Shown: in pieces, positions 9,638 to 20,174 of the stretch | Layout: each line of letters starts with the position of its first letter | Numbering within the stretch: position 1 is the first letter of the stretch | Source: an uncultured Porphyromonadaceae bacterium | GTDB taxonomy: Bacteria; Bacteroidota; Bacteroidia; Bacteroidales; Muribaculaceae | Assembly: GCA_947174515.1 (NCBI GenBank) | Contig: CAMWJD010000004.1 | Span: 1-32,964, forward strand | Length of the DNA stretch: 32,964 bases | Direction: 5' to 3' | Program-made: the position numbers and the translations under genes | Notes under the pieces: generated by a model | Told to the model about the DNA's origin: nothing | What the model saw: the letters and a program-made list of their open reading frames with translations, nothing else | Database searches by the model: none

Positions 9638-9760
9638 TCAGAGGTCCTTAACTACAGATTCAGGCATATCGGCTGCCTTCGGATCCACATCTGCAAATGG
9701 TGCATCTTGATTTAATTCAGCATTTGCTTCTTTTACTTCTTCATTAATTGGCTTTTCCAT
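9638..9760 (-). CDS. Unlisted 40-aa acidic small protein (MEKPINEEVKEANAELNQDAPFADVDPKAADMPESVVKDL)
   Basis: Clean ATG-to-TGA ORF between the trxA terminator and the repeat element; below the length cutoff of the supplied track; terminator 12 nt after its stop. Confidence 0.55.
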   Translation of the reverse strand: MEKPINEEVKEANAELNQDAPFADVDPKAADMPESVVKDL

Positions 9761-9785
9761 AGTATTTGATCATAATTTTAATTCC

Positions 9786-9858
9786 TAAGTAGCTCACAGA
9801 AATTAAACGATAATGTAATTCAAGCAGCTTGATATCATTAATTTTTGCGAGCTACTTA
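9786..9858 (+). mobile_element. Short non-autonomous terminal-inverted-repeat element (MITE-like), copy 1, 73 bp
   Basis: Ends TAAGTAGCTCACAGAAATTAA / reverse complement TAAGTAGCTCGCAAAAATTAA (21 bp, 2 mismatches); left 47 bp matches the reverse complement of 19352-19398 with one mismatch. Confidence 0.7.
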
Positions 9859-19278: not shown

Positions 19279-19398
19279 TAAGTAGCTAAGAAAAATTAAA
19301 CGACATATGTTACTAAGTAATCCGATAATGGTCTTGATATGATACATGCGGTCAAGCTGCTTGAATTACATTATCGTTTAATTTCCGTGAGCTACTTA
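19279..19398 (-). mobile_element. Short non-autonomous terminal-inverted-repeat element (MITE-like), copy 2, 120 bp, inverted relative to copy 1
   Basis: Ends TAAGTAGCTAAGAAAAATTAAACGA / reverse complement TAAGTAGCTCACGGAAATTAAACGA (25 bp, 4 mismatches); 47-bp arm shared with copy 1. Confidence 0.7.
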
Positions 19399-20151
19399 TA
19401 GTAATTTATAGTTAGTTGCGTAGGATATTGCCTCTGAAATATTGCTTACCTCCAATTTCTCAAACAGGCGATGACGGGCCGACTTGACGGAATCAACGGC
19501 AAGGTGCGCTTGCTCTGCGATTGCATTGATTGTCAATCCCTGAATGGAAAGCGTCAGAATCTCTTTCTCAGTTTCATTCAATACCTGTGAATTGTGCTTA
19601 TTCCAACGATGGATTTCCATGTCATATTTCCAATATTCCGATTTATCACGACAATACATGGTGATATGGCCGGCTTTTGAGTGCGTGGAAAGCGAAACAA
19701 CCGACAGGCCAAGCCACATGGTTCCGTCAGGTTGAAATGCCAAGCCCGTCAACTTATGGTTGATAAGGATTTTTTCGTGTCCGTTTACAATGTGAAAATC
19801 ATATGATATTGTGTAATTCCCTCTCTCCTCCGGTGGCACCTTATTAATGAAAGAAAAGCCGGCCTTATTAATATCCAACAACATTTTGACTTCATCGTCA
19901 GGCACATGATCAAGATAGAACTGATAACCGAGATCCTTTACCTTCTGTGCATCAATCCCGCACAGGAACAGAGGATTTGGAGAGACGTAAAGAAAATTCT
20001 TTCGGTAATAGTCTATGATATAGACACTTTGGTAAGTGGCATTGGCAAACGCCTCGGCAGTCCGTACATAGGCCTCTGCGAGTCCATAATCCGGTTCACC
20101 GCTCACTGCATTGCCGGAATAGAAGAAGTCCTCAACTTTGTTATTACCCAT
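19396..20151 (-). CDS. LuxR-type helix-turn-helix transcriptional regulator with PAS-like N-terminal domain
   Basis: C-terminal LNETEKEILTLSIQGLTINAIAEQAHLAVDSVKSARHRLFEKLEVSNISEAISYA; N-terminal PAS-like YIIDYYRKNFLYVSPNPLFLCG; start at MGNNK preferred over 20166 because of the promoter position. Confidence 0.85.
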   Translation of the reverse strand: MGNNKVEDFFYSGNAVSGEPDYGLAEAYVRTAEAFANATYQSVYIIDYYRKNFLYVSPNPLFLCGIDAQKVKDLGYQFYLDHVPDDEVKMLLDINKAGFSFINKVPPEERGNYTISYDFHIVNGHEKILINHKLTGLAFQPDGTMWLGLSVVSLSTHSKAGHITMYCRDKSEYWKYDMEIHRWNKHNSQVLNETEKEILTLSIQGLTINAIAEQAHLAVDSVKSARHRLFEKLEVSNISEAISYATNYKLL

Positions 20152-20174
20152 AGTGCGTTGATACATTTAATATG

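Follow-up and report, generated by a model that had tools for sequence, protein, structure and literature searches.

The described systems closest to the element analysed here are the ERIC repeats (also IRU or RU-1; MITEEc1 in ISfinder, and MITEPlu5 in Photorhabdus), which are small, intergenic, palindromic MITEs with TA at their ends and form a stem-loop over the whole element. ERIC is 127 bp long and carries terminal inverted repeats (TIRs) of the type TATACCC..GGGTATA in enterobacteria. The ERIC-like MITEPlu5 is reported to have ends in common with IS630 elements and to use TA targets (PMC6267812). A precedent for the pairing of a MITE with an IS630 element is the RUP repeat of Streptococcus pneumoniae, a non-autonomous 107-bp sequence whose TIRs match the IS630-family insertion sequence (IS) IS630-Spn1 and whose target is TA (PMC2229807). 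In Yersinia, an effect of ERIC on RNA through RNase E is reported in work cited by PMC2229807 and PMC10969869. In another Bacteroidales species, Porphyromonas gingivalis, the BrickBuilt MITEs have been reported (PMC4596501). Because none of the papers searched combined IS630, MITE and Bacteroidales, the family presented here looks undescribed in that literature.

The window, the whole stretch of 32,964 nucleotides under analysis, is contig C4 of a metagenome-assembled genome (MAG) of 2,288,158 bases in 201 contigs, which is 79% complete. It contained two copies of the element (Table 1). Copy 1 was flanked by dnaE on one side and by a small conserved ORF on the other. Direct reading confirmed the described 21-bp TIRs of copy 1, with 2 mismatches in 21, and the described matches to copy 2 also held: one difference separated the left 47 bp from the reverse complement of 19352–19398, and the right 21 bp differed at 3 positions from the far arm (19279–19299) of that copy. 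The derivation that had been drawn from these matches, in which copy 1 was copy 2 with its middle removed, was wrong. Copy 1 joined the left 47 bp and the right 27 bp of one subfamily, A, and copy 2 was not its parent, being composed of the left end of a second subfamily, B, and an inverted left end of subfamily A. The small ORF, starting MEKPINEE (approximately 9639–9761, minus strand), lay between thioredoxin and dnaE, and it probably encodes a real protein of about 40 residues because its alignment was kept across congeners.

Table 1. Coordinates of the two element copies in the window and of their parts.
Feature	Position	Strand	Description
Copy 1	9786..9858	+	subfamily A element of ~196 bp, shortened to 73 bp by internal deletion
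Left 47 bp of subfamily A in copy 1	9786..9832	+	includes left TIR 9786–9806, read directly as TAAGTAGCTCACAGAAATTAA
Right 27 bp of subfamily A in copy 1	9832..9858	+	one base in common with the left part; includes right TIR 9838–9858, the reverse complement of TAAGTAGCTCGCAAAAATTAA
Copy 2	19279..19398	+	two left ends joined in a 120-bp chimera that lacks right ends and the central hairpin
Left 73 bp of subfamily B in copy 2	19279..19351	+	TAAGTAGCTAAGAAAAATTAA type; 72/73 identical to L127:971-1167
Inverted left 47 bp of subfamily A in copy 2	19352..19398	-	from sequence comparison
First TAA of copy 2, the luxR-type stop codon	19396..19398	-	luxR-type gene 19396–20166

The repeat was abundant in its own genome. 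A search with the 73-bp sequence gave 49 matches, the left 47 bp of copy 1 was found 47/47 identical at 14 other places, and the TIR pattern, with up to three mismatches, occurred 122 times against 3 times for the reversed control; the repeat pattern of copy 1 is therefore not a chance resemblance but lies far above the chance level. The 122 terminal-repeat ends correspond to about 60 copies, which disposed of the possibility that the two copies in the window were the only ones. Many further copies were present in congeners: 36 of the 61 sampled genomes of the genus had the TIR pattern, which reached 53 matches in another species. The family thus shows these attributes of a MITE: it is short, non-coding, bounded by terminal inverted repeats, dispersed and high in copy number.

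In congeners as in the own genome, full-length copies were mostly 185–197 bp long, with 20–21-bp TIRs starting TAAGTAGCT, and the shorter copies were internal deletions of them. In the own genome, subfamily A ended in CTCACAG / CTCGCAA (for example L037:1011-1206) and the 197-bp subfamily B in CTAAG (for example L127:971-1167). At the extreme of internal deletion, two 38-bp near-perfect palindromes in genome G013 (L155:964-1001 and L156:1005-1042) consisted of two TIRs back to back. A module of about 46 nt, TTGACTCGTC(N14-20)GGAAACTCGTCGATTTTCAATT, sat inside several MITEs at differing positions (L144:945-1185, L162:775-1015, L152:994-1235, L048:1296-1535, twice in L150, and in L148 and L205); it gave no Rfam match and has the look of another mobile or recombining unit, smaller than the MITEs and nested in them.

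Placement and anatomy were read from the stretches around copies. Among the copies listed or fetched, none was contained in an ORF of 90 or more residues, and at the fetched loci many copies began less than 20 bases from a stop or start codon. About 21 of the 37 fetched places lay no more than some 150 bases from the end of a contig, which suggests that the assembly is broken by the repeat itself. The exact core pattern was found only in the own genome among 396 Bacteroidota genomes, a sample that held five others of its order. A typical phage element was rejected as an identity, with the core in two viral contigs and the TIR in none. About 40 Bacteroidales-type element ends were also present on JAMPHR01 contigs (L175, L176, L190 and L230) of a MAG labelled Paenibacillus, which is probably mislabelled.

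When the two loci were compared with those of congeners, the element was absent from both. At copy 1, the order thioredoxin, small ORF, dnaE was kept without the element; the alignments of genomes G081 and G014 ran through the junction without interruption, and G117, G115 and G078 were consistent with this. At copy 2, the luxR-type gene ended in its own stop, with no element, in G022, G031, G098 and G015, and in G022 and G031 this stop was a TAA at the same codon. Because these congeners carry the same genes without the element, both copies are, as judged from these alignments, lineage-specific insertions, and the segment is not conserved at both loci across the family. Filled and empty loci thus occurred for the family, between species and not between strains. 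Complete copies had TA at both ends. Of the empty sites that had been sought, loci lacking the element were found; base-level empty sites were not recovered, as the spacers of the relatives were too diverged for a TA duplication to be read from them. Taking exactly one TA out of the copy 2 locus failed to restore the expected luxR stop codon, so that a later mutation must be assumed.

An IS630-family partner was present in the genus. IS630-type DDE_3 genes were found in G010, G032, G083 and G086, and element-bearing congeners (G010, G032 and G083) were among these carriers. Such genes were not found in the window's own MAG (G000, with its 79% completeness and 201 contigs), nor in G013, G062 and G085, of which G013 and G062 were high-copy for the element. 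Over the genus, 22 of 111 genomes had IS630-type genes. Two 1110-bp ISs, L373:1382-2491 (from Muribaculaceae bacterium Isolate-036) and L374:1382-2491, were 88.6% identical, and in both an HTH ORF and a DDE ORF lay in different frames, a layout that fits a frameshift-type IS630. The window's genus probably includes Isolate-036, because G086 and the congener G104 showed the same IS630 place (C34:19822-20232).

The ends of these ISs matched those of the MITEs. The right end of L373, TAAGTAGCTACTAAAAATTAA, was identical over 21/21 positions to MITE ends of G010 and G013, and the subterminal motifs ATGAACA and ATATGTT matched the two distinct MITE ends in the right orientation. The end of L377, TAAGTAAGTCGTAAAAATTAA, was the MITE end type of G085, so that two different MITE end types matched two different IS630 end types, and further ISs with matching ends were L382, L396 and L397. 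The family therefore shares its ends with IS630-family ISs (NF033545; DDE_3), as had been anticipated for a full-length element carrying a transposase, and the 1.1-kb ISs are likely its autonomous partner, judging from these ends. The MITE itself has no transposase, and none of the four ISs checked had the hairpin core. A TIR-pair search for an element of about 1 kb in G085 and G086 with the pattern TAAGTAAGT returned none because the IS ends differ from it by a few bases; the ISs were found by the family search. Matches to DDE_Tnp_1 (PF01609) in G010, G013, G062 and G086, with none in G000, were set aside as a partner once the IS630 ends had matched.

The full-length copies formed a rod whose pairs covaried strongly. 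A full-length copy of the own genome had a folding z of -5.97, and RNAalifold on 36 copies gave 49 pairs, 35 of them with two-sided changes. The reverse strand, reading GAAGGAGC...GCGACTGA, folded better in 35 of the 36 copies, at a mean of -69.3 kcal/mol against -56.5 kcal/mol for the other strand. Mismatches of the A.C type, which are G.U on the reverse strand, outnumbered G.U by 45 to 19. In 36 diverse cores, covariation was 0.481, compared with 0.149±0.014 in shuffled and 0.10–0.18 in slid alignments; covariation of the TIRs is expected of any MITE. Read as pairs, the apex was G.A A.G A-U G-C G.A A.G G-C C-G, in which the G.A pairs would form as judged from their conserved letters. When named genomes were scanned for CAGTCGCNTANNNNNNTANGCTCCTTC, at least 118 stretches were found, nearly all labelled Bacteroidales among the matches listed, on elements with quite different termini.

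These observations are best accounted for by a new ERIC-like, IS630-linked MITE family, very probably moved in trans by an IS630-family transposase at TA. Both original descriptions apply, since the element is a non-autonomous MITE-like element (many copies, loci without it in relatives, IS630 ISs with the same ends) and a dispersed structured repeat whose full-length copies form a folded rod with covariation. The original suggestion of IS630-type transposition at TA is supported by the ISs with the same ends in the genus; from those ends we infer mobilisation by IS630 and duplication of the TA. Full-length copies bounded by TIRs would be excised and inserted in trans by a transposase of this family (Tc1/mariner superfamily), supplied by the frameshift-type ISs of about 1.1 kb, and would enter TA dinucleotides in mostly intergenic DNA. 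The apical hairpin, absent from the four ISs checked, is a separate conserved module. The fold would act as RNA on the strand with GAAGGAGC..GCGACTGA, and the best guess by analogy with ERIC is that the hairpin, whether as RNA or as single-stranded DNA, either lets insertions close to gene ends be tolerated or modulates the flanking mRNA. The element is most likely selfish, with a rod and apex that, by the same analogy, would affect RNA near gene ends.

Other origins fitted parts of the evidence. The copies adjoin gene 3' ends and fold well, as an ordinary untranslated-region structure or RNA element of dnaE/thioredoxin and luxR would if inherited vertically, but such inheritance is refuted by congeners that lack the element at these loci, at least five of them for copy 1 and four for copy 2; with about 120 such ends in the genome and no Rfam match for the window or the elements, it is hardly credible. 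A self-propagating structured repeat without a DDE transposase (REP/RAYT-like, or a retro-copied RNA), for which any likeness to IS630 ends would be secondary, is very unlikely, given that the IS630 ISs of the genus match the element in its long TIRs and in its two subterminal regions and that MITE and IS630 end types correspond two to two. It would agree with the covarying whole-element fold and its strand preference, with the IS630 gene not being found in the own MAG, and with a core common to elements of quite different ends.

A further alternative concerns the function of the fold and not the identity of the element. Replication-linked correction of imperfect palindromes is a known mutational process, and the rod and its covariation could be functionless products of such errors; the orientation of the fold relative to neighbouring genes, with no clear bias (20 against 11), agrees with this. 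The strand asymmetry in A.C and G.U cells speaks against it, as does the apex, which was invariant across differing stems and ends even at the non-standard pairs G39 A40, G43 A44, G61 A62 and G65 A66 of alignment A2, an invariance that is partly a selection effect, as the A2 cores were selected by a pattern fixing most apex letters. Alignment A1, with copies chosen by their TIRs alone, had the same apex letters. Some of the internal covariation could stem from palindrome correction during replication, which would hardly account for the conservation of the non-standard letters, and a fold without function is on balance unlikely.

When the IS630-linked MITE family was compared with known systems, the closest likeness was to the central hairpin of ERIC. 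This hairpin (AGGAGC-TTAC-loop-GTAA-GTGACTG) was in register with that of the family, with agreement at 15 of 16 conserved hairpin positions and in both sequence and geometry. An E. coli ERIC copy (L284:301-427) read AGGAGCTTACATAAGTAAGTGACTG on the strand equivalent to that of the family, which was again the better-folding one. With the covariance model R1, built on the Bacteroidales core, the E. coli ERIC hairpin was the sole match at E <= 1, at 15.8 bits and an E of 0.38, which is weak alone; with the apex position matrix, only 3 of 40,000 structure-preserving ERIC shuffles scored as well as ERIC. Among 399 Pseudomonadota genomes, the pattern AGGAGCNTANNNNNNTANGYGACTG occurred in 13 and the control in none, mostly as ERIC-like copies; since ERIC had guided the design of the tolerant form (GYGACTG), these counts are support rather than independent discovery, and the R1 and shuffle tests are fairer.

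The family also differed from described elements. In ERIC, the outer G.A pairs give way to an additional CCCC/GGGG stem, and no clear sequence similarity was established beyond the core. The family was not filed as ERIC because its termini and its length differ; it is ERIC-like in working and in core, but it is not ERIC. RUP differs from it in ends, host and interior, and BrickBuilt, by its description in PMC4596501, is set apart by a minisatellite. Some gammaproteobacterial ERIC-like elements (L327, L330, L339 and L350) had GAAGGAGC..GTGACTGA or CAGC..GCTG instead of the CCCC/GGGG stem, the Bacteroidales-like GAAGGAGC..GTGACTGA being that of L327 and L330, and these elements may be transitional forms linking ERIC to the Bacteroidales type. 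A MAG labelled Gammaproteobacteria (G127; L179 and L315-L317) held an element whose core was of the Bacteroidales type (GCGACTG), in two copies arranged in tandem.

The apical motif, GAAGGAGC-hairpin-GCGACTGA, is thus common to Bacteroidales elements of different termini and, in register, to enterobacterial ERIC. The hairpin, two tandem G.A pairs around A-U/G-C followed by a short stem, may be a mobile structural module that Bacteroidales MITEs and ERIC have both kept because it is recognised by a factor of the host or in a step of transposition, with the two of one origin or the module exchanged between gut phyla; this is put forward tentatively, at somewhat less than an even chance. For the genomes that carry it, the family seems to break assemblies, many contig ends lying inside copies, and it sits a few bases from gene ends, where it can supply stop codons. 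The hairpin in common with ERIC offers a testable handle on why ERIC-type repeats keep one central fold, and it also bears on a common origin of repeats in two gut phyla.
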